From assembly GCA_937959125.1 (NCBI GenBank), contig CALGQU010000180.1, positions 1-38,481 on the forward strand: a stretch of DNA of 38,481 nt, in the 5' to 3' direction. The DNA comes from an uncultured Croceitalea sp. (GTDB lineage Bacteria; Bacteroidota; Bacteroidia; Flavobacteriales; Flavobacteriaceae). Of the stretch, positions 17,976 to 38,338 are shown piece after piece (within the stretch, counting starts at the first letter, position 1; every line of letters begins with the position of its first letter). The notes beneath the pieces were generated by a model. It saw nothing but the letters and a program-made list of their open reading frames with translations, had not been told where the DNA came from and did not search any database. The position numbers and the translations under genes were made by a program.

Positions 17976-20900
17976 ATGCCCCGCAAAAAAACAAGGCGTC
18001 TTCTGTATGCCGTGCTATTGGTGTTATCATCAGTTGTTGTTTCGGCAGTCGTACATCCCAATACGTTTCTATTGGAGCCGGTGCTTGGCATATCCAATAG
18101 TGCCCCATCTACATCCCAATTGGAAGTTGGTTCAAAAGGGAAACGTGCTATATCAAAACATACGGAAGTTTTAGAAGCGCCCTACTTCAACACCATCATA
18201 CAAGGGGCCAATGAAACGGTCACTTGTGCAAATGATGGAAGTACCCTTGCCAAATTCTTCCTTTGCGGTACAAGTGACATTAGAAGCATAAGCTTAAGTC
18301 AATTCGGTACGAACTATGATTGGGAACAATTGGATCCCAATACCTGCGCACCCACGGTACAAGATGACTGCCCCACATTGAATAACGCTTGTACTTGGAA
18401 TACGGTGGGCAACGATCCAACGTATGATTTAAGCGCTGCTGGTGAATACCGTGTACGTGTGGACGGTGGACAATACTTTTATTTTAAGGTTACCCAAAAC
18501 CCGCTGGACCCCCAACTGGTCTATGAGGATATTATTTGCGGCAATCCGGGCAGGGTAGAAGTAACCAATGTTCCCAATGGGTATGAGTATAGCCTTAACA
18601 GCAATGCGGGCCCTTACCAAACCGATCCTTTTTTTGATATCCCCGCAGCTGGGGATTATACCGTTTTTGTACGTTTGGTAGGCTCTGGGGCAAGTGCCTG
18701 TATCTTTCCTTCCAATACGGTGACCCTTCAAAGTTTGGACATATCGATCGAGGTATCCAAGACGGATATACAATGTAGTGGGGAACAAGGAAGTATTGAT
18801 GTTTCCGTTTCCGGGGTTCCCGGTTTTTATACCTATAGATTGATTAAAGACGGGGTAACCGTAGATACTTTTGGTCCTGATGGTGCAGATACCTATACCT
18901 TTGCCAGTGTAAGCTCCGGCATTTATACCATTCGTGTGGAAACCAACGACTGTAGCGTTACGGTAAGCGACGATATTAATGGAAACCCTATTGAAATAGG
19001 AACCGGTATTAGTCCCCTTGACGTTTCTGCAACGGCGTCGGATAGCTTTGGTTGTGGCGCAACTTCCGTGGATGTCAGTTTGACCACTTCTGGAGGTACG
19101 GCCCCATACCGTTATAGTTTGGATGGAGGACCTTTAAGTGCCACCTACATGGGGAATACTACATTTTCCGTTACCGCCTCAGGAACATACAATCTCGTCA
19201 TTGAAGATGCCAATGGATGTCAACGTACAGCTTCGGTTGATGTGCAGGACATTCCACCACCCACCTTTACGTTGATCGAAGAGGATGCCAATTGCGGGGG
19301 TGCGAATAACGGGCAGATCACCGTAAACTTGGTCAATGGATTTGGGTACAATATTGAATACAGTAATGACAATGGAGCTACGTTCCAAGTAAGTAATGTA
19401 TTCTCCAATTTGGCACCTGGGGCATATGATATCATGTTACGGTATACCCAAGATTCCTTTACCTGCAACACTGCAGCTACTACAGGAAATGTAGGGACAC
19501 CTTCAAGTATTAACGCCAATGCCAATGCGGACAGCGGTCCCTCTTGCGGCAACGAGACCGGCGGTCAAATTACCGTAGCGGTCGTTTCCGGGGGCACGGC
19601 TCCTTATGAATATAGTATAGGCGCAGGATTTGGAGCAACCAACGTCTTCCCCAATTTGGGTGTAGGGAGCTATACCCCATTAATTCGTGATGCCAATGGT
19701 TGTGTGGAGCCCTTGGCCACTATTGTTTTTGATGCTTTGGACAAACCAACGGATTTGGATTTTGTCATTTCCAGTCTGGATTGTATTACTTCAACGGCAT
19801 CCGTAACCCTTAGCGTTACCGATGGTGCTGCACCCTACACTTATGAAATAGTGGCACCAGCAGCCAGTGCCATTAACAATGGGAACAATACTACTTTTAA
19901 TGGGTTGGGACTGGGAACCTATACCTTTAGGGTTACCGATGCTACCGGATGTAGCTATGATGAAAATTATGCCATAACGGACATTAGTTCCATAGGTGCC
20001 CAAGCGCAGCAGATAAGTCCTATTACCTGTTTTACGGATAGTGATGGAGAAGGACGCTTTTTAATTGACGGATTCAGCAATACTTATAGCTATAGCATAG
20101 ATGGCGGACCACTGCAAACCGGCCAGACCAGCGGGACCGTTGACCTTAATGCACTTGCAGCAGGAAATTATATGATCACCGTAACCGACGAGGACACCAA
20201 TTGTACGGATACGGCAACCTTGACCATTGAAGGACCGGCCGCTCCTTTGGCGATCGATGGTTTGGATGTGGAGCCCATGAATTGCCAAAATGGTAATATA
20301 GGTAGTGTTCGTATCAATACTTCTGGGGGATGGGGCGGAAATCGATATACCTTGACCCAACCCAATGGATCTACAAGAGGACCTAAAAACGGAAGGACCT
20401 TTTCCAACCTATCCCAAACGGGTTCTTATGATGTAAGTGTTACGGACACTAATGGCTGTACCGTTACCATACTCAACGCCTTTACCTTAACCGCTTTAGA
20501 TACACCAGTACTGACTGTGGATGTTGCAGCGTCGGACTTTTGCTATGATTCATTCGACGCTGCTTCCCTAGTCGTTACGGCAGCTTCGGGACAAGCACCC
20601 TACCAGTATCGCATTAATGGAGGAACCCTTGGTGCCAGCAATAGTTTTACAGGATTGAATCCGGGTCCATATACCATAGAAGTAGTGGATGCCAATGATT
20701 GTTCGGACACGGTAAACGTCACCATCAATCCCCAAATAACGGCAAATGCTACTATTTTAAGGGAATTGGAATGTTCCGGTCCAGATGCCGAAATTCGTGT
20801 TTCCGTATCCAATGGGTATCCTAGCGCAGGCAACTATGTGGATTATGATGTCTATGTAGATGGCATGCTTACAAGCTCGAACAACGCATTTCTTGGGACA

Positions 20901-23900
20901 AATTTTATCCATACGGTTCCCAATAACGGTTCCATTACGACCGATACCTCTTTCCGCTTTGTGGTCCGCGATAGCCAAGGCTGCGAAAACACGTCAGATG
21001 AGGTGGTACTGACCCCTCAGGAAACTATCGCAGGAACGGCCGCTACAACGGATACCAGCTGTGGACAAAATAACGGTATCGTTACCTTGACTGCAGATAC
21101 TAGCCAAGGAGTACCTCCCTACCAATACAGTAATGATGGTGGTACCATCTTTGGAAGTCAAAACGTATTCTCTGGCTACGCTCCGGGCACCTATTCCAAT
21201 TTTTTTATAAGGGATAGTAGAGGTTGTATAAGCCCTGCTATTTCCGCTACCATAGCTTCAAGTATACCTTTGGACGCTAACCTGACGCCCACTCCTGCAG
21301 AATGTTCAACATCCACTTCTGGAGCCATTAATACCGTTATTTCCAATGGTACCGCTCCTTTTGACTATATCTTATTGGATGTTAACGGTACGGAAATACA
21401 ATCCTCTTTGGCCAATGGCAGTACCACCCATGACTTTTTAGGCCTGGCAGAAGGATCATATACCGTGATCACAAGGGATGCACAAGGTTGTGAAGATTTG
21501 GATACCGTGCGGATTACGGATGACGACCTGACCATCATTCCCGTTCCAGACCCCATTGTAGACTGTACCAGCGGCTTAAGTTTGGAAATCCAGATTGTTG
21601 GTGGTACCGGACCTTTCCTATTACGTTTGGTAGGAGAAACTATACCTAGATATAGCCCTAACAACCCACCAAGGAACCATAGGTTTACGGGTCTTGATTT
21701 TGGAACCACCTATTTTGTTGAGGTTGAGGATACGGCTACAGGTTGTATTTATATTGAAGAAATACCACCGTTTACCCCGCCTTCTCCTTTAGATGTAACG
21801 GTAACATCGTCCAATGCTTCTTGTGATGCATTGGGTAGCGGATCCATTGCCTATACCATTACTGGTGCATCGGGTGCAAACGTAACGGTTACGGTGACCA
21901 ATACCACAACGGGTATGGTGCTTTCCGGACCTACGAGTATACCTTCAGCTGGGCCCTTTCCAGACTTTACGGGATTAATGCCGGGGAACTACCAAGTAAC
22001 GGTAGAAGACCCAAATAACGGATGTACCAATAGTGATTTGGCCAGCATCACCCTAGATGCACCATCCGTCATTATTTCAAATAACGTCCCCGCAAGCTGT
22101 AACTCCGGTGCCTTAGTAACGGTAAGTGCAGGTGGTGGAACAGCTCCCTATACGTTTGCTTACGTACCCAATGGGGCTGCAGCACCTACAACCTTCACCA
22201 CCACTACGACTTTTGATATCCCTGGACCTTACCCGGCGGACTATGATTTTTATGTACAGGATGATAATGGCTGTATCAGTATGATAACGGAAACCGTTAC
22301 CGAGACCGGCGGTGTTCCAACACCATCCATCAATGTGGTAAATCAATGTACGGCCACCAGTGGTTATCAAATCGATGTTATTTCCCCATTGACCGTTCCC
22401 GCTAGTGGACCGGAAACTACTTTTGAGTACGATATAGGGAGTGGCTACCAATCTAGTCCCAACTTTGTTGTTCCAAATCCGGGGAATTATGTCATTACGG
22501 TTAGGGATGGCAATGGTTGTACTGCAACGGTTAATGCTGAGGTTTTTGATTTCTTTTCCATCACTGCGGATGCTACTTCGGTCCCTACGTGTAATGCCGG
22601 GGATGGCATTATTACGGTAAATACCAGTGGCGGTAGCGGTAATTTTGATTATGAACTTCGTTTTCAGGGAACCCTATTGCCAACGGGAATTACTCCTACT
22701 GGGAACCAGTTTTTAAATGTTCCACCCGGTGATTATGACGTGTTGGTCACGGATTTAAGTTCCAATACCGTTCCACTATGTTCGGATACGGCCATAGTGA
22801 ACGTATCGACCGTAGATAGTCCCATTATAACAGCGACTCCCAGTAGCCCTATTAGTTGTTTTGGGGCTGCAAACGGTACCATTTCTGTGGAACTCCAACC
22901 CGGTACGGATACGGATACCCCGTTATCGTATACGCTCTATGATGGTGCCACAACAACTATAGTCGCGGGGCCACAAGGATCACCTTTGTTTGATAATCTG
23001 GGCCCTGGAACCTATCAAGTGGAGGTTTCGTCCAACAGAAATTGTACGGATCGCTCAGCGGATATTCTTATTGAAGAGCCTACACAATTGCAAATCAATG
23101 TAACGCATACCGAGTTTAGCTGTAACCCATCCAGCAATCAATTTAGCACAGCCACTATCACCGCCTTTATGGATGACAATGGCGATGGTAGCGGTACATT
23201 GACCGGTACGGGTCCCTATACGTATAGCATGAATGATGGAACCGCTACTTTTGACGGTACCAATTTCCAGACCAGTAACGTATTTGAGGTTGTAGACAAT
23301 GGCACTGATCAAACGATTATTATAACGGCTAGAGATCAGCGCGGCTGTGAAGTGTTTGATACCGTCAACATTGCTGCCCCAACGGACTTAACCTTTAGTT
23401 TTGCCGTAAACGGAATTACCTGTGATGCTTCCGGAGCAGGTGTTGCGCCAGGTTCCATCGAAATCATCATTGATCAGGGAGCAGGAAATTACGATGTTGA
23501 AGTTTTACCCCTTGGGTCGGAACCAGCACGAAATTCTGCAGGCACCGATAGGGTCGTATGGGATATTGCAACCCCAGGGGATTATATTTTTGCGGTGACC
23601 GATTTAACAAGTGGAGGCTGTACGTATTTGACTTCCATTGTCAATATGCCAGAGTACAATACCATAGCCGCTACCATTGCAGAAGTAAGCCCAGTGACTT
23701 GTTTTAACGGTAGGGATGGGGTCATCAGTCTGGACGTCAGCAATTATAGCGGACAGTATAGTTACGAAGTTTTCTCACGGGATAATATGGGGGTTGAGAC
23801 CACGACCACGGTAACCGGAAGTTTTGATACCAATGCACCCGTCAATAGTCCAGAGTTGATCAGTGGCCTGCCCGCTGGAAATTTGGTGGTACGTATTGAA

Positions 23901-26267
23901 GCTTTGGATACGCCGTTCTGTGATGTGGTAAGTAATGTTGCCACGGTACGCTCACCGGATAGGGCGTTGACGGTAGCCATAGATCAAACATCCGAAGTAA
24001 CCTGTAATGTTCCCGGACAAGGGGAAATCACCGTTGCCGGAGACGGCGGATGGGGAGGTTATGAGTATCGTTTACAAGCACCGGATGGCACTATTTTGGT
24101 CGATTTCCCAAATACGGACCCCATCTTCCCAAGCCTGTCAGAAGGTTTACATACGATTACCGTTAGGGATAGCCGGGGTTGCGAAACACCTAATACCATT
24201 GACTTAATGTTGCCGGTACCCATTACAGCGGATATACAGGTAGTAAGTCCGTTACGTTGTAACAACGATAATGATGGTATAATAGAAGCGTTCAATATTG
24301 CAGGAGGACAAGGAACGGGAAATTATTTGTTCCAATTGAACAGAATAACGGATGGAACAGATAGTGGATTACAGACCATGCCTACCTTTGCCAATCTTTC
24401 TGCCGGAGAATACACCATTACCATTTTTGATGGGTGGAACTGTAGTTTTACTACCGTGCCTATTACCGTTCAGGACCCAGAAATTGTTGTGGCGGCATTA
24501 GTGGAACTACAACCTCCTGGTTGTGGGGACCTGGGTAGAATGCAGTTAACGGTAACCAATCCGGAACCAGGGGTAGATTATTTCTACCAACGCACGGGCA
24601 GTGGTGCAGGTTTTATCCCTTTTGGTGCAGGAGCTACCAGTGTGGAGATCGCTGTAGATATCACCGTAGATCCGGGGCCGTTCCAATATGATGTCCAAAA
24701 TTCCAATGGCTGTCCTTCGGAGCTTTCCAATCTCATTTCCTTGGACCCGGCGGCTCCACTGGTCATTTCCTTGGATTTAGCCAATGCGACCATCAATTGT
24801 GCGGGTGAAGCAACGGGAATAATACGTTCCGAAGCTTTTGGGGGCATAGGAAACTACCAGTATACACTATTAAATTCAGACACACCACCGACACCAACGG
24901 CCGTGAATACGGAACGTGCCGCGCAGAGCTCAGGTATTTTTAGAAACTTAAGTCCCGGCACTTATTACGTTTATGCCCAAAGTGGCGGTTGTGAGGCCAT
25001 TTCCCCACCAATAGTCATAGAACCGCGCCCCCCTTTGGTCTTGGAGTACTTTGAGGCTATGGATGCTACTTGTTTTGGGGAATCAAATGGCCAGATAATC
25101 ATTGAAGCAAGCGGTGGAACGGGAGCCATTAGGTATTCTATTTCTGATACTTTAAGCCAGTTCTTTGAAGGTGATGATCCCGTCAATCCTAACAGAATAA
25201 CTTTTGATAACCTAGCACCCAGACAGTACGATATTATTGTACAGGACGAGTTAGGCTGTACCATTACCAGAACGGTCACTATAGAACAGCCCATGGAATT
25301 GGTAGCCAGTTTGGCCAATTCCACTCCAGAAACATGCTTGGGCGATGCCGATGGCAGTATACAACTCAATATCATGGGCGGCACCGCCCCTTACTATACC
25401 AGTATCAATTCTGCGGATGATGCAGATTTTATGGAAGATAATACCTTTTTCTTTGATGGATTATTAGGTGGGGAGAGCTATGTTATCTTTATAAGGGACG
25501 CGCAAGGGTGCGAAACCAACGTCATCGTTCCGGTGGGTATTGGTATTGACTTGGTTGCAGAACCTATTGTCCAATACGGTTGTGATGGTATTTTCCCAAA
25601 TAGTACCACTACGATTAACATAATGGATGATTCCCTCTTGCCCAACCTACTATTTTCCTTGGATGTAGATGATGTTATGTTAGCCAGTACGCAACGTACT
25701 TTTGCAGACCTGCTTCCCGGTGACCATACGATTTATGTATACCATGAAAATGGATGTGTAACCTTTGAGGAATTCACCGTAGATCAATATTTGCCGTTGA
25801 CCCTTGCAGCAATTAAAACAGGACCCAATGAATTGACGGCATTGGTAGAAGGTGGTTTTGGGGATTATGAATACTATTTCCAAGGCGAATCTTTCGGCAG
25901 CAATAACATATTTACCACCATAATGGATGCCAATATTGATGTCATGGTGCGGGATGCCCGTGGATGTGTGGCTAATCTTGTCATTCCCTTTGATTTTGAT
26001 GCTATGCCGGATTTTCCAGATTTCTTCACCCCGGATGGTGATAATCTAAATGATCAATGGATGATACAGAACAGGGAACTGTTTCCCAATATCGATGTCA
26101 AAATTTACGATAGGTATGGACGGGTCGTAGCTGATTTACGAGAGGTAGAAGGATGGGATGGAACCTATGAAGGCGCACCATTACCTACCGGCGACTATTG
26201 GTATGTTGTTAACTCAAATAACGAAGATGCGCAACAATTTGTAGGACATTTCACATTATATCGATAA
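17976..26267 (+). CDS. Giant SprB-repeat surface protein with gliding motility-associated C-terminal (T9SS type B sorting) domain
   Basis: 2763 aa with an N-terminal hydrophobic signal. Many repeats of the form G-G-T-A-P-Y-x-Y-S-[ILD] ... L-xx-G-x-Y-T-x-x-V-x-D-A-N-G-C. C-terminus FFTPDGDNLNDQWMIQN...KIYDRYGRVVADL...GWDGTYEGAPLPTGDYWYVV. Confidence 0.94.
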   Translation: MPRKKTRRLLYAVLLVLSSVVVSAVVHPNTFLLEPVLGISNSAPSTSQLEVGSKGKRAISKHTEVLEAPYFNTIIQGANETVTCANDGSTLAKFFLCGTSDIRSISLSQFGTNYDWEQLDPNTCAPTVQDDCPTLNNACTWNTVGNDPTYDLSAAGEYRVRVDGGQYFYFKVTQNPLDPQLVYEDIICGNPGRVEVTNVPNGYEYSLNSNAGPYQTDPFFDIPAAGDYTVFVRLVGSGASACIFPSNTVTLQSLDISIEVSKTDIQCSGEQGSIDVSVSGVPGFYTYRLIKDGVTVDTFGPDGADTYTFASVSSGIYTIRVETNDCSVTVSDDINGNPIEIGTGISPLDVSATASDSFGCGATSVDVSLTTSGGTAPYRYSLDGGPLSATYMGNTTFSVTASGTYNLVIEDANGCQRTASVDVQDIPPPTFTLIEEDANCGGANNGQITVNLVNGFGYNIEYSNDNGATFQVSNVFSNLAPGAYDIMLRYTQDSFTCNTAATTGNVGTPSSINANANADSGPSCGNETGGQITVAVVSGGTAPYEYSIGAGFGATNVFPNLGVGSYTPLIRDANGCVEPLATIVFDALDKPTDLDFVISSLDCITSTASVTLSVTDGAAPYTYEIVAPAASAINNGNNTTFNGLGLGTYTFRVTDATGCSYDENYAITDISSIGAQAQQISPITCFTDSDGEGRFLIDGFSNTYSYSIDGGPLQTGQTSGTVDLNALAAGNYMITVTDEDTNCTDTATLTIEGPAAPLAIDGLDVEPMNCQNGNIGSVRINTSGGWGGNRYTLTQPNGSTRGPKNGRTFSNLSQTGSYDVSVTDTNGCTVTILNAFTLTALDTPVLTVDVAASDFCYDSFDAASLVVTAASGQAPYQYRINGGTLGASNSFTGLNPGPYTIEVVDANDCSDTVNVTINPQITANATILRELECSGPDAEIRVSVSNGYPSAGNYVDYDVYVDGMLTSSNNAFLGTNFIHTVPNNGSITTDTSFRFVVRDSQGCENTSDEVVLTPQETIAGTAATTDTSCGQNNGIVTLTADTSQGVPPYQYSNDGGTIFGSQNVFSGYAPGTYSNFFIRDSRGCISPAISATIASSIPLDANLTPTPAECSTSTSGAINTVISNGTAPFDYILLDVNGTEIQSSLANGSTTHDFLGLAEGSYTVITRDAQGCEDLDTVRITDDDLTIIPVPDPIVDCTSGLSLEIQIVGGTGPFLLRLVGETIPRYSPNNPPRNHRFTGLDFGTTYFVEVEDTATGCIYIEEIPPFTPPSPLDVTVTSSNASCDALGSGSIAYTITGASGANVTVTVTNTTTGMVLSGPTSIPSAGPFPDFTGLMPGNYQVTVEDPNNGCTNSDLASITLDAPSVIISNNVPASCNSGALVTVSAGGGTAPYTFAYVPNGAAAPTTFTTTTTFDIPGPYPADYDFYVQDDNGCISMITETVTETGGVPTPSINVVNQCTATSGYQIDVISPLTVPASGPETTFEYDIGSGYQSSPNFVVPNPGNYVITVRDGNGCTATVNAEVFDFFSITADATSVPTCNAGDGIITVNTSGGSGNFDYELRFQGTLLPTGITPTGNQFLNVPPGDYDVLVTDLSSNTVPLCSDTAIVNVSTVDSPIITATPSSPISCFGAANGTISVELQPGTDTDTPLSYTLYDGATTTIVAGPQGSPLFDNLGPGTYQVEVSSNRNCTDRSADILIEEPTQLQINVTHTEFSCNPSSNQFSTATITAFMDDNGDGSGTLTGTGPYTYSMNDGTATFDGTNFQTSNVFEVVDNGTDQTIIITARDQRGCEVFDTVNIAAPTDLTFSFAVNGITCDASGAGVAPGSIEIIIDQGAGNYDVEVLPLGSEPARNSAGTDRVVWDIATPGDYIFAVTDLTSGGCTYLTSIVNMPEYNTIAATIAEVSPVTCFNGRDGVISLDVSNYSGQYSYEVFSRDNMGVETTTTVTGSFDTNAPVNSPELISGLPAGNLVVRIEALDTPFCDVVSNVATVRSPDRALTVAIDQTSEVTCNVPGQGEITVAGDGGWGGYEYRLQAPDGTILVDFPNTDPIFPSLSEGLHTITVRDSRGCETPNTIDLMLPVPITADIQVVSPLRCNNDNDGIIEAFNIAGGQGTGNYLFQLNRITDGTDSGLQTMPTFANLSAGEYTITIFDGWNCSFTTVPITVQDPEIVVAALVELQPPGCGDLGRMQLTVTNPEPGVDYFYQRTGSGAGFIPFGAGATSVEIAVDITVDPGPFQYDVQNSNGCPSELSNLISLDPAAPLVISLDLANATINCAGEATGIIRSEAFGGIGNYQYTLLNSDTPPTPTAVNTERAAQSSGIFRNLSPGTYYVYAQSGGCEAISPPIVIEPRPPLVLEYFEAMDATCFGESNGQIIIEASGGTGAIRYSISDTLSQFFEGDDPVNPNRITFDNLAPRQYDIIVQDELGCTITRTVTIEQPMELVASLANSTPETCLGDADGSIQLNIMGGTAPYYTSINSADDADFMEDNTFFFDGLLGGESYVIFIRDAQGCETNVIVPVGIGIDLVAEPIVQYGCDGIFPNSTTTINIMDDSLLPNLLFSLDVDDVMLASTQRTFADLLPGDHTIYVYHENGCVTFEEFTVDQYLPLTLAAIKTGPNELTALVEGGFGDYEYYFQGESFGSNNIFTTIMDANIDVMVRDARGCVANLVIPFDFDAMPDFPDFFTPDGDNLNDQWMIQNRELFPNIDVKIYDRYGRVVADLREVEGWDGTYEGAPLPTGDYWYVVNSNNEDAQQFVGHFTLYR

Positions 26268-27310: not shown

Positions 27311-30300
27311 ATGCAAAAAACACTAAGTCTTTTTCTAATTCTGTTTAGCAGTGCGGTACTAACAAGTACGGCCCAAGACATTGCTAGTGGGGCAAACGAT
27401 AATGGAACAAAGTTTACACCTATTTCAGAAAACCATTATCCCAAAACGGTAGGTTTTAGAAATACGGAAACTGCACTTGTCAATGGATCGTTTGTAGTAG
27501 ATAATGACGGGGAGTTTGTTAGGAATGCCAATAATAGAAGGATAAGAACACCAAGGTTTTCCCCAGAAGAGTTTGGTACGGACATGTTCCGTTTTCCAAT
27601 GATTCAAGGAAAGATGCTTCCAGAGGAAAGGAGGGATAACCCTGAATTTGCGGCTGCCGGGTATTCAAGGGCAAAGGAGTTACACCCAGAAATCAAAATA
27701 GCGATACATTGGAACGGCAGAAACCGCAGGCCGGAATTTCAAAATGAAATGGGGGAGCAGTGGTATGCAGGGCATTGGTTGTATAGGACGCCAAATACCA
27801 TTGCGGCAGCAAATGGTATAGATGAGACCCAGACACGTATACCTATTGGGGATGCAGGACCCTATCGTAACCATAATTTTGATAGGACCCTACTGGCCTT
27901 TTGCCTGTATGTGGAAGAGAATGGTGTTAAAGACTTTTATCAGAATGAATATATCATAGCAACTGGTTTTGATGCCACTACCAACGAACTTATTGTAGAT
28001 CGGGGAGCGTTCGAAACTACTGCCAGAGCCTTTGGCTCAGGTAAAGTAGGGATTGCTGAATTGGCCATGCTTGGCACACCGGGCAGGGGCAATGGAGCTA
28101 GGTTTTTTTATAATTTTTCTACACTATCGCCCCGGGACAGGTTTGGACGAACGGCAAATGAAGCACTTATTGATGAACTTGAGTTTAGGGCAAATAACGA
28201 TTTGAGTTTTATTGATGGGATAGAATTTGACGCATCTACCGTGGCTGTGGCACGTCAATTCTTTGGAGGGGCTTTTGATCTTGATTTGAATGGTGATGAA
28301 GAGACCTATGGCATGGAAAACGGAGTGAATTCCTTGTTCCTTGGCTTTTTCGATTTCTTTAAACAACTAAGGCAAAGGATGGGACCTGATTTTATTTTGA
28401 TTGCAGACTCTAGGACCTCATTTCATAACCGGGCATTTACTTTTTTGGATGGAATAGAATCTGAGAACTGGCCGCAAAAACAAGACGAGCAAGCTATGAG
28501 ACAATGGTCTTCCGGTATTGCAAGACACCAATATGTAGATACCCACGTTTCCCAAGGCCCCAATAAATTCAGTCAGTTTAATACTAGGGTCTATGAAACG
28601 GATAATATAGTACGTTTGTCCCAGGTGGCTGCCGCAAGTCTAAACGCTGGCCATACCTCCAACTATTATCTGGGCAGCGAAACAGATGATATTATTGGTT
28701 GGACGGATGAAATGAGTAAAGGCAAGGAGAACGACTTTAGTGGTTGGCTTGGAAACCCAACTGGAGAAATGATGCGCTTGGCATCCCAACAACCCAATCT
28801 TTTTGCCAATGGCCCTGCGGCAAAATATAACAATCTGGTGTTTAGGGGAAATGGTGAAACCACAGATACTTTTCTGCCAAAATCTACCGTAGTTATTGAT
28901 GATATTCCAAACGCAAGTAATGAAATCTATTTTACCATAAAAATCAATGCTGCGCAATTACGTGATTACCCTATTGGATATGACAGACTGTGTAGGGTAA
29001 CTATAACCCAAAGCGGCAATAGTCTTCCCAATGGAGAAACACCTCCGGCTGGTAATGGGGCACCAGAAGAATATACCCAAGAATTTTACGTGGATGCAGA
29101 TGGAGAGGAATATGGTATTTACTTTAGATGGTTAAATAAGGATAACCTTAGTCTCACTTTTGAAATGGAAGGCATTGAAACAGCGGTAATAGAGTCTATT
29201 ACCGCACATGACCATCCAGATATCATTTATCGAGAATTTGAGAACGGTATCGTAGTGGGAAATCCTTCCACATCGGAATATACTTTTGATTTGGGTACAA
29301 TTTTCCCAGGACAGACTTTTAAGCGAATAGATGGCTTTTTTCATCCTGATGTGAACAATGGCGAGGCTGTAGGAGAGGATATTACGCTGGCCAGTTTGGA
29401 CGGCATCTTTTTGGAAAAGGTGTTCCAGGATAGTGATGATGATGGTATTTTGGATAATGAAGAAGAAGATTTGGGAACCGATCCCGATGATCCTGATAGT
29501 GATGATGATGGTATTTTGGATGGTGATGAGGTTGATAACGGCACGGATCCCTTGGACCCGGATACCGATGATGACGGTGTTAGGGACAATGAGGATGTTG
29601 GCCCACTGGACCCCAATTCCGATAGTGATGGAGATAATGTTGGGGACAATGAAGAAACTAGCAATGGTACCGATCCGCTAAACCCAGATACCGATGGTGA
29701 TGGTTTAGAAGACGATGTTGATCCAGACCCATTGAACCCAGAAGAAGAGGAGATGGATAACGGGGATACAGAAGAAACCAATGAAGATGGCAATGAGGGA
29801 TCTGATGAAGGTTCTGATGAAGGTTCTGATGGGATGGACGAAGATGAAGGCACTACCGGAGAAGATGACAGTACGGATATGGACGGCACCGATGAAGGAA
29901 ATGAGGAAGAAGATGAGGGGTCATCTGATGAAGGTACTGATGGGATGGACGAAGATGAAGACATTACCGGAGAAGATAGCGATACGGATATGGATGGCAC
30001 CGATGAAGGGAATGGGGAAGAAGATGAGGAATCTGATGAAAATACTGATGGGACGGAGGAAGATGAAGGCACTACCGAGGAAGATAACGACACAGATGGT
30101 ACCGAAGAAGATACAGCTGACGACACGGAAAACCCTGATGAAAATGGAACCAACGGACTTGAAGAAGAAGACCAAATCGAAATATTTGCCTATCCAAACC
30201 CGGTTACGGATTGGTTGCTGTTAAATGGTGTAGAAGCCGGTAGTTTTATTTCGGTATATGATATTAGCGGAAGAAACCTTATGTTCACCATCTATGATGA

Positions 30301-30391
30301 ATCCCAAATACCCATGCAGAATTTTAGTTCTGGCACCTATATTTTGGAAATCAATGGGCAGACGCAAATAAAAATTTTAATTAATAGATAA
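27311..30391 (+). CDS. Secreted putative glycoside-hydrolase-like protein with thrombospondin type 3 repeats, acidic linker and T9SS type A sorting domain
   Basis: Signal peptide [22 protein letters not shown]; large N-terminal enzyme-like domain ([16 protein letters not shown]...DGIEFDAS...FILIADSRT); [24 protein letters not shown] repeats; Asp/Glu-rich repeats; C-terminus [30 protein letters not shown]...[21 protein letters not shown]. Confidence 0.85.
29824..30150 (+). repeat. Imperfect 108-111 bp (36-37 aa) tandem repeats in the acidic linker
   Basis: GATGGGATGGACGAAGATGAAG begins at 29828 and 29939, with a diverged copy at 30047; protein unit [ST][25 protein letters not shown]. Confidence 0.85.
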
Positions 30392-30450: not shown

Positions 30451-30679
30451 AGATTTTAAGGAATCTACTTTAATTAGTATCGTCACGGGATAGAATACTC
30501 CGAGGCCTGCACTTCCGGCAGATGGGCTTGCCAAAATAAATTAAAATTCAGTTTCGTATAAATGCCTTGTGGGTTTGCGACGAGGTAATTTGCTGGTGGT
30601 GTCCCTATGTTTCAATAAAGAAATAATCTTTTTACCATATAGCAACATATTTTCTTTCTTGAAAAAAAGAACTTATCTT

Positions 30680-33499
30680 TTGAGAGGTGTTAAAAAGAAA
30701 CCATTGAAATATACTTTCCCTCTTTTATGCTTCTTATTTTTTGGGTTACATGCCCAAGAATTGCCGCCCATCCAAAACTACCAGCCGGAAGAATATCACG
30801 GTGAAAATCAGAATTGGGATATTTCGCAGTCTTTGGATAAGCTGATATATGTAGCCAATAATAAGGGATTGTTAGAATTCAATGGGGCCAGTTGGAGTCT
30901 TTATCCGTCGCCCAATGAAACTATTATGCGTTCCGTAAAAGTAGTGGGCGATCGCATTTATACCGGTTCTTTTATGGAATTTGGCTATTGGACAAAGAAT
31001 AGCGTAGGGGGTCTGGACTACACTTCTATAGCCAGTACACTCTCTGTAGGACTTTTAGAGGATGAGGAGTTTTGGAACATTATTGCCTTAGAGGATTTTA
31101 TGGTGTTCCAATCCTTAAAGAGGATTTACATCTATAATGTTGGTAATAAAACGATAAGCACTATTTCTTCTAAAAACACCATTACAAAAATGTTTTTGGT
31201 AGACGGCACTGTTTATTTCCAACGTTTGGGCCAAGGATTGTTCAAAATCCAATCAGGAAAGGATATCCTGGTTTCAAATGCACCCCTTGCTAAGGATGAT
31301 GAGATCATCAATGTATTTGGTAAGGAAGAAAATTTGCTTTTGCTCACCAAGAACAACGGCTTCTTTAAAATCAATGCATTGGGAGGTTTAAGCGCTGCGG
31401 ACAATTATCCTAATAAAATGTTGAAGGATCTTAGCTTATATGATGGTATTCAACTAAAGGATGGAACATACGCTTTAGGAACAATATCCAATGGCCTTAT
31501 ATCCTTGGATAGTAATGGTAAATTAGAGTATCAAATCAATCAGAACAATGGCCTATCCAACAATACGGTACTTGCACTTTTTGAAGATATGGCCAGTAAT
31601 ATTTGGTTGGGCTTAGATCATGGAATTAGTTATGTCAACGTAAAATCACCCTACAGGAATTTTAATGATTATGACGGGGATTTAGGGAGTGTATATGCAG
31701 CGGCTTTGCATCAAGGCAACCTTTATCTAGGTACTAATCAGGGACTCTATTACAAGGTTTATGGGACTAATGATCGGTTTAAATTGATTACGGGTACGCA
31801 AGGACAGGTTTGGTCGCTACAGGAATTTAACGGTATTCTTTTGTGTGGCCACCATAAAGGCACTTTTCAGATAAAGGATACCAGTGCAGAACAAATAAGT
31901 GAGGTCCAGGGGGCTTGGAAATTTTCCCGACCGGACAATACCTACAATATATTATTGCAAGGGAATTATGATGGACTTTATGTATTGGTTTTTGACGGTA
32001 CCACATGGAAACTTAAAAATAAGATCGTAGGTTTTAACAATTCTTCCCGGTATTTTGAAACCTTGGGAAATACCATTTTTGTAAATCATGAGTATAACGG
32101 TGTGTTTGAGTTAAAGGTGAATCCAGGTTATACCAAAGTAGAACAAGTGGTAAAAGATACCCAGATAAAAGGTTCGAAATCAGGGCTTATAAAGTATCGC
32201 GGGGATTTACTTTACGCTTATAAAAAAGGAATTTTCAAGTATAATGTGGACCAAAATACATTTATACGGGATACGGTATTGAGCAAGGTATATTCTTCCC
32301 ATACCTATGAATCTGGCAAACTCATCACGGATACTTTAGATAACACACTTTGGATATTTACCAAACCCGGCATATCATTTGTTACCCCAACAGCCTTATC
32401 CAGTGACCTTCAAATTAAATCCATACCGCTAAACAAGGAAATGAGAGATGGTATCTTGGGCTATGAGAACATCATAAACCTTGGGGATAGCAGGTATCTT
32501 CTGGGTAAGACTTCTGGCTATACCATTTTTGACCTTAGGCAATCCATACCATTGGATTTTGAAGTACAATTGTCCAGTGTGGCCAATATCAACTTTAGGA
32601 AAAATGAGGATTTTGTTCCAAAAGATGTTTTGGGAGAGTTTAGTAGTAATCAAAATGATTTTCATTTTTCTTTTTACGTTCCGGAATATCAGAAGTATTT
32701 GGAAACACAGTATCAATATAAATTAGAGGGCATATATGATGATTGGAGCGGTTGGACCAATGATGTTGAGGTCCTTTATGAAAATTTGCCATATGGAGAC
32801 TATGAGTTTAGGGTACAGGCAAGGTTAGGAAATCAAAAATCCTCCAATGTTGCAGCGTATAGTTTTACAATCGATAGGCCTTGGTTTATTTCAAATGTCA
32901 TGCTAGCGACTTATATCATTGGGGTTATTTTTTTCTCCCTGTTCATGCACAACGTCTATAACAAGTATTACCGCAGACAACGAGAAAAATTGGTGGAGAA
33001 AAATAAGAGGGAATTGGAATTTGCGCAAATGCAAAGCGAAAAAGAAATCATTAAAATAAAAAATCAACAACTACAGCAAGAAAATAAATCGAAGACCAAA
33101 GAATTGGCTGCTTCCACTATGAGTATCATTAAAAAGAATGAGCTTTTAGGTAAAATTAAAAAAGAGTTGGTAAATTCCGTTGGAGATGAAAGTTCTATAA
33201 AACCGGTAGTTCAGATTATAGATAAGAACCTTAACCAGAGTGATGATTGGGAAATGTTCCAAGAAGCGTTCAACAATGCAGATAGTACCTTTCTAAAAAC
33301 GGTAAAATCCTTGCATCCTAAGCTTTCCCCAAACGATTTAAAATTGTGCGCGTATTTAAGATTAAACCTCTCGTCTAAAGAAATTGCACAACTACTGAAT
33401 ATTTCCCCAAGAAGTGTGGAAATCAAACGATATCGTTTACGTAAAAAGTTGGATCTAAACCATGAAGATAACCTTGTAAACTACATCTTAGAGGTATAA
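30680..33499 (+). CDS. Membrane-tethered regulator: beta-propeller sensor, Y_Y_Y domain, TM helix, coiled coil, LuxR-type HTH
   Basis: Signal/TM FPLLCFLFFGLHAQ; propeller-like NGLSNNTVLALFEDMASNIWLGLDHGISYV; Y_Y_Y-like YQYKLEGIYDDWSGWTNDVEVLYENLPYGDYEFRVQA; TM; HTH LSPNDLKLCAYLRLNLSSKEIAQLLNISPRSVEIKRYRLRKKL. The ORF is open from GTG 30569; TTG 30680 places the signal peptide at the N-terminus, so the start is uncertain. Confidence 0.88.
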   Translation: MRGVKKKPLKYTFPLLCFLFFGLHAQELPPIQNYQPEEYHGENQNWDISQSLDKLIYVANNKGLLEFNGASWSLYPSPNETIMRSVKVVGDRIYTGSFMEFGYWTKNSVGGLDYTSIASTLSVGLLEDEEFWNIIALEDFMVFQSLKRIYIYNVGNKTISTISSKNTITKMFLVDGTVYFQRLGQGLFKIQSGKDILVSNAPLAKDDEIINVFGKEENLLLLTKNNGFFKINALGGLSAADNYPNKMLKDLSLYDGIQLKDGTYALGTISNGLISLDSNGKLEYQINQNNGLSNNTVLALFEDMASNIWLGLDHGISYVNVKSPYRNFNDYDGDLGSVYAAALHQGNLYLGTNQGLYYKVYGTNDRFKLITGTQGQVWSLQEFNGILLCGHHKGTFQIKDTSAEQISEVQGAWKFSRPDNTYNILLQGNYDGLYVLVFDGTTWKLKNKIVGFNNSSRYFETLGNTIFVNHEYNGVFELKVNPGYTKVEQVVKDTQIKGSKSGLIKYRGDLLYAYKKGIFKYNVDQNTFIRDTVLSKVYSSHTYESGKLITDTLDNTLWIFTKPGISFVTPTALSSDLQIKSIPLNKEMRDGILGYENIINLGDSRYLLGKTSGYTIFDLRQSIPLDFEVQLSSVANINFRKNEDFVPKDVLGEFSSNQNDFHFSFYVPEYQKYLETQYQYKLEGIYDDWSGWTNDVEVLYENLPYGDYEFRVQARLGNQKSSNVAAYSFTIDRPWFISNVMLATYIIGVIFFSLFMHNVYNKYYRRQREKLVEKNKRELEFAQMQSEKEIIKIKNQQLQQENKSKTKELAASTMSIIKKNELLGKIKKELVNSVGDESSIKPVVQIIDKNLNQSDDWEMFQEAFNNADSTFLKTVKSLHPKLSPNDLKLCAYLRLNLSSKEIAQLLNISPRSVEIKRYRLRKKLDLNHEDNLVNYILEV

Positions 33500-33768: not shown

Positions 33769-36700
33769 ATGAATACATTGTTAAAAAGATTGGTCAAGCT
33801 CAGCTTTTTTCTTCTTACCACAACACTGTTAGCACAAACTGCTCAAGTAAAAGTGGTAAATGACGACAAGGGAGCACAATTGATGGTAAACGGTGAAAAG
33901 TTTATGATTAATGGTATGAATTGGGATTATATCCCAATTGGAACCAACACCGTAAATGCAGATTTCTGGAAAAAACCGGATGATGTTATTAAAGCAGGGT
34001 TGGATACGGAAATGTCCTTGCTAAAAAACATGGGAGTTAACGTTATACGCCAGTATACGGGAGTCCCTGCAAGATGGATACGGTATATCTACGAGAATTA
34101 CGGTATCTATACCATGTTGAACCATTCCTTTGGTCGGTATGGATTAACATTGGACGGCGTTTGGACACCCGTAACCATATATTCTGAAGAACGGACCCAG
34201 AAATTCTTGCTGGACGAAATGAAAGGTTTGGTAGAAGGATATAAGAATACGCCAGGACTCCTATTATATCTGTTAGGCAACGAGAACAATTACGGCTTAT
34301 TTTGGGCAGGTGCGGAAACGGAGGATTTCCCGGATGGCCAGGAAAAGATAAACGCTGTTGGTGAATTGCGCGGTAGGCCCATGTACCGATTGATGAATGA
34401 AGCCGCCAAAATGATGAAGGCGATAGATACATCGCACCCGGTAGCCATATGTAACGGAGATGTTCTGTTTATTGATATTGTAGCGGAAGAATGTAAAGAC
34501 ATTGATATCTACGGCACCAACACCTACAGGGGCGTTTCCTTTGGCGATATGTTCGATGTGGTAAAGGAAAAGTTGGATAAACCCATTATGTTCACGGAGT
34601 TTGGTGCGGACGCTTTTAGCGCCATAGAACAAAAGGAAGATCAGTATTCCCAAGCGTACTATATGGTAGGCAATTGGAAGGAGATTTATGAAAATGCCGC
34701 AGGTTTGGGCAAGGCCAATAATTCCATTGGAGGGTTTACCTTCCAATTTAGTGATGGATGGTGGAAATTTGGTTTTGATGACAGAAAGAACGCCGATCTT
34801 CATGATAACAACGCTTCTTGGTCCAATGGTGGTTATGCCAGGGACCTTCCTGCTGAAGGGGAAAATAACATGAACGAAGAGTGGTTCGGTATCTGTGCAA
34901 AAGGCCCAACCAGCCCTAGGGGACTTTATGAGCTGTATCCTAGAGCAGCCTACTATGCCTTAAAAGAAGCCCATAAATTGAATCCCTATGAGACAGGTGT
35001 GGATTTGCCGTTCATTGATAATTATTTTGGGAACATAGAGCTAGCCGATGCCGTACTACGCGCTAGGGGAGATAAAGCCGCCCTGTCCGGACAGCAAACA
35101 AGTAAGCTTAGATTAAGCAACTTGCAGGCAAAGTTTACCACCTTTAATACGGGGGGTAACCTAACTACAACGCCAGAAAATGCAGATCCTACGCAACAGG
35201 TTTTTCCTAATCAGCAAGGGTTCGATTTTCAACAATCCTATTTTGTAGGCGTGGAAGGTAATCCTGCATCAAACGTAAGGGCAGAAGTCAACTTCAATGT
35301 CCTTGGAAATGTGGCCCAAAACCCTATTGATGAAATCTTTTATGAAAATCGTGGTCGGCCCATAACCGTGGAAACGGATCAAGGTCCGGTCGTACTTAAC
35401 GATGTAAATAGGGTTCAGGTATATAATGCTTCTTTTGAATGGAATGCCAAGGATTTTGATGTACGGGGATTCTTTAGGACAGGCCATTACCATTGGGGTT
35501 ACGAAGGGGATTTTTTCGGACTGTATCCAGAAGCCAACTACGGACCTAATCTAGATATCTATAACGGGGAGACCTCCGGTATTGAGGTTGATGGCAAACG
35601 TGCTTTCAAAGGATTTAAGGCCGCCTTCGGTCCACAATTGTGGTGGGGGGCCAACCCAGCGGTTTTGTTGAAATATTCCAAGAAATTTGGCAAGTATGAC
35701 ATCACGGGTATTTTTCATGAAGACGTAGATGATTTTGGCACCATTGTATCCTCTTTGGCCGTTCCGCAACCAAGAACAAGAAGGGGAACCATACATATAG
35801 AAAGAAAGTTTGGAGAACATCTGAATGTTGAAGTGGGTGGTATTTGGGGTGGACAGCCCTTGAACGGCAGGGAATTCCAGTTCACGGAAGAAGATGACCC
35901 AAACAGCCCTGTTTTTGTGGATCAAGTGGATACTAAGGATAATTGGGGAGGTAAAGCCAAGATTACATATGAAGGCGGAAAATTCAATTGGTACGCTCAA
36001 GGAGCCGTTATGGGATTGGTTGCCGGTGGCGGTGCAGACGCCACAAAAACCTTTACCGGATGGCGCTTAAAGGATAGCGGTAGTGGTAATCAGACCAACT
36101 TTCTAACCGGTTTTACGGTAAGTGCGGGTAATGTGCAGATCGCTCCAAACTTTTTATGGCAAAAACCTATTGTAGGGCCAATTCCCAATGGTATTGGCGG
36201 TGCAGGCAGGTTACGTAATATTTTGGACGATCCTTTTGTGGTACGTGCAAATAGGGAAACCGTAGCTGGGGAATTGTTGCTCACCTTTGATCCCACGCCG
36301 GGAACTTGGTTTTATGAATGGGACAATGATCGTTCAGAAGACGCAAAACTGGCGGTAAGTACAGGTTTCGTTTTTCGCCATCATCCCACGGCTCAAGATG
36401 CAGCTATCGGATTCTTAGGCAATCGTACCTTATTTGCATTTCCCGGTTCAGCACCGGCTAGAAACCTTTGGGAAAGCAATACGCGTTTGGTATCCAAGGT
36501 AAGTCCAGATTTAGGCTTAATTGCCAACTTATACTTTGGAAATGCCCAAGCACGCGGTAGTGATGAACGACTGATCGAACGGGTAGGTGGAGATATAAGG
36601 CTCATTTACAAAAAAATAAAGGTGCAACACGCCTTCAAGATCAACGATTGGGGTCCCTTTGACTTCCATCGTGATTTTAACTTGACCTTCCCAGTACAGT

Positions 36701-36927
36701 TAATGCTGGACATCTCAACTACCGTAGGTAAACAAGATTGGTTCATTCTTCCAAGTACCCAAATTGGTATTCGCGGAACATGGCGTTCGCTCAATGAATT
36801 CTCACCTCGGTTTTTACCAAATGCCATGGAAGAATTCGCTACGGAACCTACCATAAGTCCAGTTGGCTTTGGCAACGGTAACGAATGGGAAATTAGAACA
36901 TATGTACATATTAACATCGGGAAATAA
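33769..36927 (+). CDS. Clan GH-A type glycosidase (GH2-like TIM barrel) fused to a predicted outer-membrane beta-barrel
   Basis: Signal peptide FFLLTTTLLAQT; TIM-barrel N-terminus with LLGNENNYG (Glu172) and MFTEFGAD (Glu277); C-terminal ~600 aa of alternating amphipathic strands with aromatic/Gly-rich turns typical of OM barrels. Confidence 0.82.
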   Translation: MNTLLKRLVKLSFFLLTTTLLAQTAQVKVVNDDKGAQLMVNGEKFMINGMNWDYIPIGTNTVNADFWKKPDDVIKAGLDTEMSLLKNMGVNVIRQYTGVPARWIRYIYENYGIYTMLNHSFGRYGLTLDGVWTPVTIYSEERTQKFLLDEMKGLVEGYKNTPGLLLYLLGNENNYGLFWAGAETEDFPDGQEKINAVGELRGRPMYRLMNEAAKMMKAIDTSHPVAICNGDVLFIDIVAEECKDIDIYGTNTYRGVSFGDMFDVVKEKLDKPIMFTEFGADAFSAIEQKEDQYSQAYYMVGNWKEIYENAAGLGKANNSIGGFTFQFSDGWWKFGFDDRKNADLHDNNASWSNGGYARDLPAEGENNMNEEWFGICAKGPTSPRGLYELYPRAAYYALKEAHKLNPYETGVDLPFIDNYFGNIELADAVLRARGDKAALSGQQTSKLRLSNLQAKFTTFNTGGNLTTTPENADPTQQVFPNQQGFDFQQSYFVGVEGNPASNVRAEVNFNVLGNVAQNPIDEIFYENRGRPITVETDQGPVVLNDVNRVQVYNASFEWNAKDFDVRGFFRTGHYHWGYEGDFFGLYPEANYGPNLDIYNGETSGIEVDGKRAFKGFKAAFGPQLWWGANPAVLLKYSKKFGKYDITGIFHEDVDDFGTIVSSLAVPQPRTRRGTIHIERKFGEHLNVEVGGIWGGQPLNGREFQFTEEDDPNSPVFVDQVDTKDNWGGKAKITYEGGKFNWYAQGAVMGLVAGGGADATKTFTGWRLKDSGSGNQTNFLTGFTVSAGNVQIAPNFLWQKPIVGPIPNGIGGAGRLRNILDDPFVVRANRETVAGELLLTFDPTPGTWFYEWDNDRSEDAKLAVSTGFVFRHHPTAQDAAIGFLGNRTLFAFPGSAPARNLWESNTRLVSKVSPDLGLIANLYFGNAQARGSDERLIERVGGDIRLIYKKIKVQHAFKINDWGPFDFHRDFNLTFPVQLMLDISTTVGKQDWFILPSTQIGIRGTWRSLNEFSPRFLPNAMEEFATEPTISPVGFGNGNEWEIRTYVHINIGK

Positions 36928-36937
36928 AAACAACAAA

Positions 36938-38338
36938 ATGAGAAAAGATAGATTTATAAATATAGGCCGCATCCTTTTAGGATGCCTTCTCATCATCATG
37001 GTTAGTTGTGAACGGGAACCGACGGAAAACGTGGAATTTGCCCAATTCCCGCAAAATGGTGATGTTTTTATTGATGCATTTTCCGCTGGATTGGACTTTT
37101 TCCCATTTGTGGATGCAGGAGCAGACCCTATGGCATTCAGCGTGGTTACGGATGAAGTATTCTCTGGTGAAACCGCAATGCGATTTGATGTCCCCGTTTT
37201 TGGGAACGGTTTTGTAGGTGCAACCTTTAATACCACAGCGGCAAGAAACCTTACCGGTTTTGATGCACTCACGTTTTATGCAAGGGCCTCCCAGGCTGCT
37301 AGTATAGATGCTATAGGGTTTGGTATTTCTGGGGAAACCAACAACAGGTTTCTGGTAACGTTAAATGAGTTGGGTGTGAGTACCCGATGGGAAAAATATG
37401 TGATACCCATACCGGATGCTTCCAAATTAATAGGTGAAACAGGCTTGTTCTGGTTGGCGGAAGGTGCTTCCTTTGAAGGTGATGAAGGTGGGTATTCCCT
37501 GTTTTTTGATGAAATTAGGTTTGAAAGATTGGGAACCATAGCCCAGCCAAGACCTACTATTTTTGATGGTCAAGAAATAACGGAACAATCATTTACCGGA
37601 TCTAGCTTAAGTGTAACCGGACTCACCCAGACCTTTAATCTTGGAACGGGAGAGAACCTTACCGTAATGGCGGCACCGGCATATTTTGATTTTTCTTCAT
37701 CAGACCTTTCGGTTGCGATTGTTAATGAGTTGGGAGAAATAAGTGTGGTGGGCGAAGGTACGGCCCAAATATCGGCACAATTGGCAGGCGTTGCGGCGAC
37801 CGGTGGTTTAGAACTGGTTTCCGGTGGTGGCTTAGAGCCGGCTCCAACACCTACCTTGCCGCAAGCAAGTGTAAGCTCCATATTTAGTGATGCCTATACA
37901 AATGCTACGGAGAGTAACTTTACCCCGGGTTTTGGGGGATCTACAACGGAGACGACTATGACCTCTGCTAACGGGGACGCCGTCTTATCCTATGCAAACA
38001 ACAACTTTACAGGGATACTTTTTGAAAACACCGTAGATGGTTCGGATCGTACTTTTCTTCACGTCGACGTTTTTGCACAAGAACCTGGAGTGGAAATTGT
38101 TATTCAAATTCGTGATGTAGGTGCAAACCAGATGATTGAATCAGACAACAATGGTAATCCAATTGTAGACGATAGGGATTTTAGATTCACCGTTAACAGC
38201 CTTGCCGTTGGTGATTGGACTTCCTTTGATATTCCTTTGGAAGGGGACCTTGCTACACAGAAGAACAATTTAGGGGCACTTATCCTTGTAGGTGGGCCTA
38301 ACTTTTTATTGGATAATATCTACTTCTTTACAGAGTAG
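36938..38338 (+). CDS. Surface lipoprotein with carbohydrate-binding-like beta-sandwich domains and a central Big_2-like domain
   Basis: Start MRKDRFINIGRILLGCLLIIMVSC (lipobox). Central SLSVTGLTQTFNLGTGENLTVMAAPAYFDFSSSDLSVAIVNELGEISVVGEGTAQISAQLAG; C-terminal SVFSD-type jelly-roll-like region ending NFLLDNIYFFTE. 11 bp after the upstream stop. Confidence 0.8.
   Translation: MRKDRFINIGRILLGCLLIIMVSCEREPTENVEFAQFPQNGDVFIDAFSAGLDFFPFVDAGADPMAFSVVTDEVFSGETAMRFDVPVFGNGFVGATFNTTAARNLTGFDALTFYARASQAASIDAIGFGISGETNNRFLVTLNELGVSTRWEKYVIPIPDASKLIGETGLFWLAEGASFEGDEGGYSLFFDEIRFERLGTIAQPRPTIFDGQEITEQSFTGSSLSVTGLTQTFNLGTGENLTVMAAPAYFDFSSSDLSVAIVNELGEISVVGEGTAQISAQLAGVAATGGLELVSGGGLEPAPTPTLPQASVSSIFSDAYTNATESNFTPGFGGSTTETTMTSANGDAVLSYANNNFTGILFENTVDGSDRTFLHVDVFAQEPGVEIVIQIRDVGANQMIESDNNGNPIVDDRDFRFTVNSLAVGDWTSFDIPLEGDLATQKNNLGALILVGGPNFLLDNIYFFTE

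Follow-up and report, generated by a model that had tools for sequence, protein, structure and literature searches.

A single gene in the DNA analysed here (a stretch of 38,481 nucleotides from an uncultured Croceitalea sp. of the Flavobacteriaceae, contig CALGQU010000180.1, hereafter the window) is predicted to encode a clan GH-A glycosidase joined to a 24-stranded outer-membrane beta-barrel. This GH-barrel fusion, which occurs with a surface lipoprotein in laminarin clusters that often lack SusC/SusD, may be an uptake pore coupled to an enzyme, of a kind not previously recognised.

Domain architecture of the fusion protein

The fusion ORF (1052 aa, ATG start) comprises a signal peptide, a glycosidase domain, a short linker and a barrel domain (Table 1). 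The full-length AlphaFold2 model (92 sequences; mean pLDDT 79, pTM 0.55) contains a (beta/alpha)8 barrel at residues ~26-421, a helical linker at 425-443 and then nearly all beta strands (24 long); as the pTM is only 0.55, the relative placement of the GH and barrel domains is uncertain. The original prediction had read the ORF as a glycosidase and an outer-membrane barrel in one polypeptide, with borders at 25-430 and 440-1052. This reading is confirmed by AlphaFold2, PF02836, Foldseek and the recurrence of the fusion, and the modelled borders lie close to those proposed. The same two-domain ORF is found, at 54-97% identity, in considerably more than 100 loci and is, thus, neither a chance product nor a misassembly or frame artefact. 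A PHROGs search matched nothing.

Table 1. Features of the GH-barrel fusion gene and its neighbours in the window
Feature	Position	Strand	Basis
Probable PUL regulator: Reg_prop/Y_Y_Y sensor with LuxR-type DNA-binding C-terminus	30569..33499	+	Pfam; upstream in 57/61 fused loci
GH-barrel fusion gene	33769..36927	+	Single open frame; full-length relatives 54-97% identity
Signal peptide, residues 1-22, without lipobox cysteine	33769..33834	+	Sequence; AF2 helix 2-21
Putative clan GH-A TIM-barrel glycosidase domain, residues 26-421	33844..35031	+	PF02836; GH158 top in profile and fold searches; AF2
Putative acid/base Glu172 (GNENNYG), directly after beta-4 (164-169)	34282..34284	+	92/92 identical; DSSP of model
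Putative nucleophile Glu277 (TEFGAD), end of beta-7 (273-278)	34597..34599	+	92/92 identical; model
Linker, residues 422-446 (helix 425-443)	35032..35106	+	AF2; protein without plug-domain match
Predicted 24-stranded outer-membrane beta-barrel, residues 447-1049	35107..36915	+	AF2 pTM 0.76; Foldseek; dyad repeat z 5.4; alternating loops
Aromatic loop 572-600 (GHYHWGYEGDFFGLYPEANYGPNLDIYNG), conserved; probably contacts the substrate or partner	35482..35568	+	Mean identity 0.95, 85 fused relatives
Conserved loop 622-630 (PQLWWGANP)	35632..35658	+	Mean identity 0.97
Partner lipoprotein, carbohydrate-binding-like; translation probably starts at ATG 36938 and the mature protein at CEREPTE	36938..38338	+	Adjacency; acidic N-terminus; CBM11/CBM30 and Big_2 matched by one relative

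The glycosidase domain

Residues 36-290 match the GH2 TIM barrel domain of Pfam (PF02836) above the cut-off (E 2.2e-6), and the domain has the features of clan GH-A: (i) a (beta/alpha)8 barrel, (ii) an Asn-Glu after beta-4 and (iii) a Glu after beta-7. The catalytic pair Glu172/Glu277 and the clan had been called correctly from the outset, as judged by these strand positions and by conservation; R94, N171, E172, Y253, E277 and W331/W332 are invariant in all 92 sequences, fused and stand-alone.

The best match for the domain profile, a remote one, is BuGH158 (6pal; E 1.8e-7), and a Foldseek search with the full-length model places GH158 endo-laminarinases at the top, followed by GH2 enzymes. 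The GH158 enzymes (BuGH158, PDB 6PAL; PMC7157763) provide the closest solved fold and share the clan, the Asn-Glu acid/base after beta-4, the Glu after beta-7 and a beta-1,3-glucan locus. Membership in GH158 is nevertheless rejected, as the identity in the fold alignment is 12-14%, the profile match is remote and GH158 has a C-terminal Ig-like domain instead of a barrel. The domain is not a canonical GH2 either. PF02836, which is the source of the database label (a fusion relative in RefSeq is named merely 'GH2 TIM barrel-domain containing protein'), is the only GH2 domain matched, and the N-terminal sugar-binding and Ig-like domains of GH2 are absent, since too few residues separate the signal peptide from the TIM domain. 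The enzyme domain is best described as a putative glycosidase with an intact GH-A catalytic set; its activity is predicted from distant similarity, and the exact bond cleaved is likewise a prediction.

The barrel domain and its orientation

The C-terminal ~600 aa have no sequence match in Pfam, NCBIfam or the PDB, even when searched as a 22-member profile. All 24 strands are retained when this part is modelled alone by AlphaFold2 (85 sequences, pTM 0.76), and the 50 Foldseek matches listed are outer-membrane barrels throughout, including BtuB-type, siderophore and zinc TonB receptors, the FimD usher, LptD, OccK7, AlgE and ScrY. The TM-scores are only ~0.2-0.4; thus, the barrel is without a close solved relative. 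The strands alternate between inside- and outside-facing residues (z 5.4 versus within-strand shuffles), whereas the TIM strands show no such alternation, and the gaps between barrel strands average 22.6 residues when they follow an odd strand and 5.0 when they follow an even one (P 1.4e-4). Amphipathic strands, short periplasmic turns and long outer loops are the marks of a transmembrane beta-barrel, and the C-terminal domain is almost certainly an outer-membrane barrel, with closure suggested by the fold matches and the pTM. Soluble beta-sandwiches, the fold that the original prediction had set against a barrel, were looked for by strand pattern, AlphaFold2 and Foldseek and were not found, which rules out a plain GH2 enzyme with a C-terminus of this type.

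The barrel is plug-less. The protein has no match to the TonB plug (PF07715), the ~25-aa linker is too short to hold one, and the barrel has 24 strands compared to the 22 of SusC; identity as a TonB-dependent receptor or SusC is, therefore, rejected. The loops at 572-600 and 622-630 are conserved at 95-97%, a pattern that appears unlike that of an inert anchor.

As a rule, the short turns of outer-membrane barrels are periplasmic and the long loops face the outer side. The alternation of long and short loops, thus, places both barrel termini in the periplasm and the enzyme probably beneath the pore, and a periplasmic location of the enzyme domain is considered likely. The original prediction had also entertained a barrel-anchored surface enzyme, in which the GH domain would be threaded outward, similarly to an autotransporter, and displayed beside the lipoprotein and GH16. 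The helix at 425-443 directly precedes strand 1, as in classical autotransporters, and the operon neighbours carry surface-type signals. This arrangement is disfavoured by the loop lengths, and is judged improbable since (i) strand 1 starts only ~16 residues after the similarity with stand-alone enzymes ends, (ii) classical autotransporter barrels have 12 strands rather than 24 and (iii) the stand-alone enzymes have lipoprotein N-termini that are mostly non-acidic.

A laminarin gene neighbourhood

Of the cluster, the window shows only the regulator, the GH-barrel and the lipoprotein before its end, and the rest is read from relatives. The typical order is LuxR-type sensor-regulator, GH-barrel, lipoprotein, GH16, CBM/PKD protein, GH149 or GH3, GH17, GH30 and MFS, where GH149 and part of the GH17/GH30 assignments are based on similarity between loci and on published clusters. 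The GH16, GH17, GH30, GH149 or GH3, MFS and regulator genes of a laminarin polysaccharide utilisation locus (PUL) are present in relatives; by gene content, the locus is a laminarin utilisation cluster. Related PULs of Formosa are induced by laminarin (PMC6246565), and PULs of Muricauda have the same enzymes (PMC13188888), including a 'GH2 beta-glycosidase' that is probably this fusion gene. The AlgE match could point instead to export, with the barrel releasing a self-made beta-glucan that the enzyme trims, like AlgE or PgaA with periplasmic hydrolases. This is highly improbable, as no glycosyltransferase is recognised in the fusion neighbourhood, the neighbouring genes are degradative (GH16, GH17, GH30, GH149/GH3, MFS) and the related Formosa clusters respond to laminarin.

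Persicobacter and Bacteroides finegoldii have the GH-barrel, lipoprotein and GH16 in the same order. The B. finegoldii locus (NZ_OY725931.1; L167:11867-22903) encodes a GH-barrel of 59% identity, a lipoprotein of 34% identity and GH16, followed by a fimbrillin-family protein and GH3 BglX, with SusC/SusD not annotated; the record is labelled a plasmid yet has valS and rpsA and may be a mislabelled chromosomal piece. Upstream in the window, 17976-26267 encodes a cell-surface protein of 2763 aa that has 13 SprB repeats and carries a CHU_C signal for type IX secretion. The gene at 27311-30391 encodes a protein of 1026 aa sorted by the T9SS; its repeat region is long, acidic and of a calcium-binding type, and its ~700-aa N-terminal part is without a Pfam match.

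The partner lipoprotein

In 138 of 139 fused loci the gene directly downstream encodes the lipoprotein, compared to 0 of 7 loci with a stand-alone enzyme, although these counts are inflated by loci that are related by ancestry or, in some cases, fetched twice. In 5 of the 7 stand-alone loci the next gene is GH149. Conversely, full-length relatives of the lipoprotein occur in 20 of 121 Flavobacteriaceae genomes, and all 20 have the fused gene. The mechanical ORF of the window copy (36863-38338) has its start at TTG 36863, inside the fusion gene; the later ATG (Table 1) is the likely true start and yields a lipoprotein signal, LLIIMVSC.

Acidic residues after the lipid cysteine form the export signal of surface lipoproteins (PMC5080379). 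Mean counts of acidic residues at positions +2 to +7 are 2.56 for the lipoprotein, 2.40 for GH16 and 0.54 for GH17, and GH149 is without a lipobox. Based on these signals, the likely layout is capture by the lipoprotein and GH16 at the surface, the pore with its enzyme in the membrane, GH17/GH30 in the periplasm and GH149 in the cytoplasm.

Distribution and loss of the barrel

A taxonomic survey of the two-domain architecture finds the fusion widely in Bacteroidota, with close relatives in ~45 of 201 Flavobacteriaceae genomes and others across additional families, including Saprospiraceae, Lewinellaceae, Persicobacter and Bacteroides finegoldii. Contig-end or broken pieces aside, no barrel without the enzyme is found among 396 sampled Bacteroidota genomes. 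By contrast, enzymes without the barrel are noted at 7 loci; they are ~430-480 aa long and share 50-68% identity with the GH domain of the fusion. These stand-alone enzymes nest among the fused ones in a quick tree that needs 5 changes; thus, several losses of the barrel are probable, each with the enzyme and its cluster retained, which suggests that the barrel is dispensable in some hosts. A separate barrel gene was sought in 11 genomes whose GH homolog is stand-alone or short and was not found; a barrel encoded elsewhere when the enzyme stands alone is, on this sample, rejected. A lipobox-like cysteine, scored by a simple pattern, is present in 5 of the 7 stand-alone enzymes compared to 4 of 85 fused relatives (missing in 81).

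One genome (G313; C314:3453-3629, after position 3464 of L154) retains, downstream of a stand-alone enzyme, a ~60-residue barrel remnant beside a stop codon, as a vestige of the lost barrel. Short lipoprotein-type GH-A enzymes of 336-352 aa, with ~25-28% identity to the fused GH domain, are found at L147:7145-8203, L151:5911-6930, L152:5420-6430 and L153:6712-7758, in laminarin-type clusters that have GH149, GH17 and MFS but no barrel.

Co-occurrence with SusC/SusD

Within ~9-10 kb on either side of the gene, SusD is found in 12 of 51 loci (missing in 39) and SusC in 14 of 51. Among 35 genomes with the fused gene, 16 have a close laminarin-type SusD (at least 50% identity) somewhere in the genome, often nearby, such that strict replacement of SusCD by the fusion is not upheld; 19 are without, one of which (G034) has a divergent SusD ~4 kb upstream. 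A 99% complete genome (G086) has 0 matches to PF07980 and one weak and distant match to PF14322, and carries, in order, the regulator, GH-barrel, lipoprotein, GH16, GH149 and GH17. In this cluster and that of G028, both with GH16, GH149 and GH17, the GH-barrel is the sole outer-membrane barrel gene recognised. In genomes with a stand-alone enzyme, SusD is adjacent in two (G178, G300), 17-31 kb away on the same contig in two (G317, G555) and absent by PF14322 in one (G432). These cases do not uphold the idea that the barrel was lost only where SusCD is present. The barrel-less genome without a PF14322 match (G432), together with the close SusD beside the fused gene in some clusters, counts against an import role.

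These observations bear on the view that the barrel is just an anchor, which would hold a periplasmic laminarinase at the outer membrane, possibly in the vicinity of SusCD, with no passage of sugar. Loss of the barrel is tolerated, the lipobox-like cysteine of most stand-alone enzymes would be a cheaper membrane anchor, and SusC/SusD are also present in some fused-gene clusters; however, a bare anchor would need neither 24 strands, nor highly conserved aromatic loops, nor a tie to a surface lipoprotein, and the fusion is present in clusters that lack SusCD. An anchor is, on this evidence, rather unlikely.

Proposed mechanism of uptake

The favoured model is an outer-membrane pore for beta-1,3-glucan (laminarin) that is coupled to an enzyme, with surface capture, passage through the barrel and hydrolysis at the exit; taken in full, it is given about an even chance. 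The lipoprotein and surface GH16 would capture and trim laminarin outside the cell, and the oligosaccharides would pass inward through the plug-less barrel, selected and guided by the conserved aromatic loops. The N-terminal GH-A domain, positioned in the periplasm just under the pore, would cut the oligosaccharides as they emerge, and this cleavage may block back-diffusion and draw in more substrate with no energy input from TonB. The remaining steps would fall to GH17/GH30 in the periplasm, an MFS carrier in the inner membrane and GH149 (or GH3) in the cytoplasm.

The original prediction of a one-protein cleave-and-import machine fits better than a surface enzyme but is modified in two respects. 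The GH-barrel probably acts as a pair with the adjacent lipoprotein rather than as one protein, based on the coupling of lipoprotein to fused but not stand-alone loci, and import before cleavage is the more likely order, given the side of the membrane on which the loop lengths put the enzyme.

Relation to known systems and significance

The cluster resembles SusC/SusD-type PULs of Bacteroidota in having a large outer-membrane barrel beside a surface lipoprotein, a surface GH16 and periplasmic GHs. It differs in that the barrel bears a glycosidase at its N-terminus, and the partner lipoprotein has no SusD match and is instead carbohydrate-binding/Ig-like. A transporter-glycosidase fusion is already known from the same kind of cluster, the MFS-GH17 protein FbGH17b of the Formosa laminarin PUL (PMC6246565). 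FbGH17b is an inner-membrane helical carrier with a C-terminal GH17, whereas in the protein described here the enzyme is N-terminal and of clan GH-A, and the membrane part is an outer-membrane barrel. No GH-outer-membrane-barrel fusion was found in the open-access literature searched.

The broader proposal is TonB-independent glycan uptake in Bacteroidota, in which a sugar-binding surface lipoprotein and a plug-less pore with an exit hydrolase import by destroying the substrate and can replace SusC/SusD for laminarin in marine species, with a counterpart in gut Bacteroides; this is advanced tentatively, at somewhat less than even chances. Laminarin is among the largest marine carbon flows, and SusC/SusD are credited with taking it up in Bacteroidota. 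How laminarin is imported by strains that have a laminarin cluster but no nearby SusC/SusD is a question raised by these findings. If the proposal is correct, this widespread fusion of pore and enzyme would give laminarin a second way in, masked in databases by its 'GH2' label, and the gut Bacteroides counterpart would extend its relevance to dietary beta-glucan.
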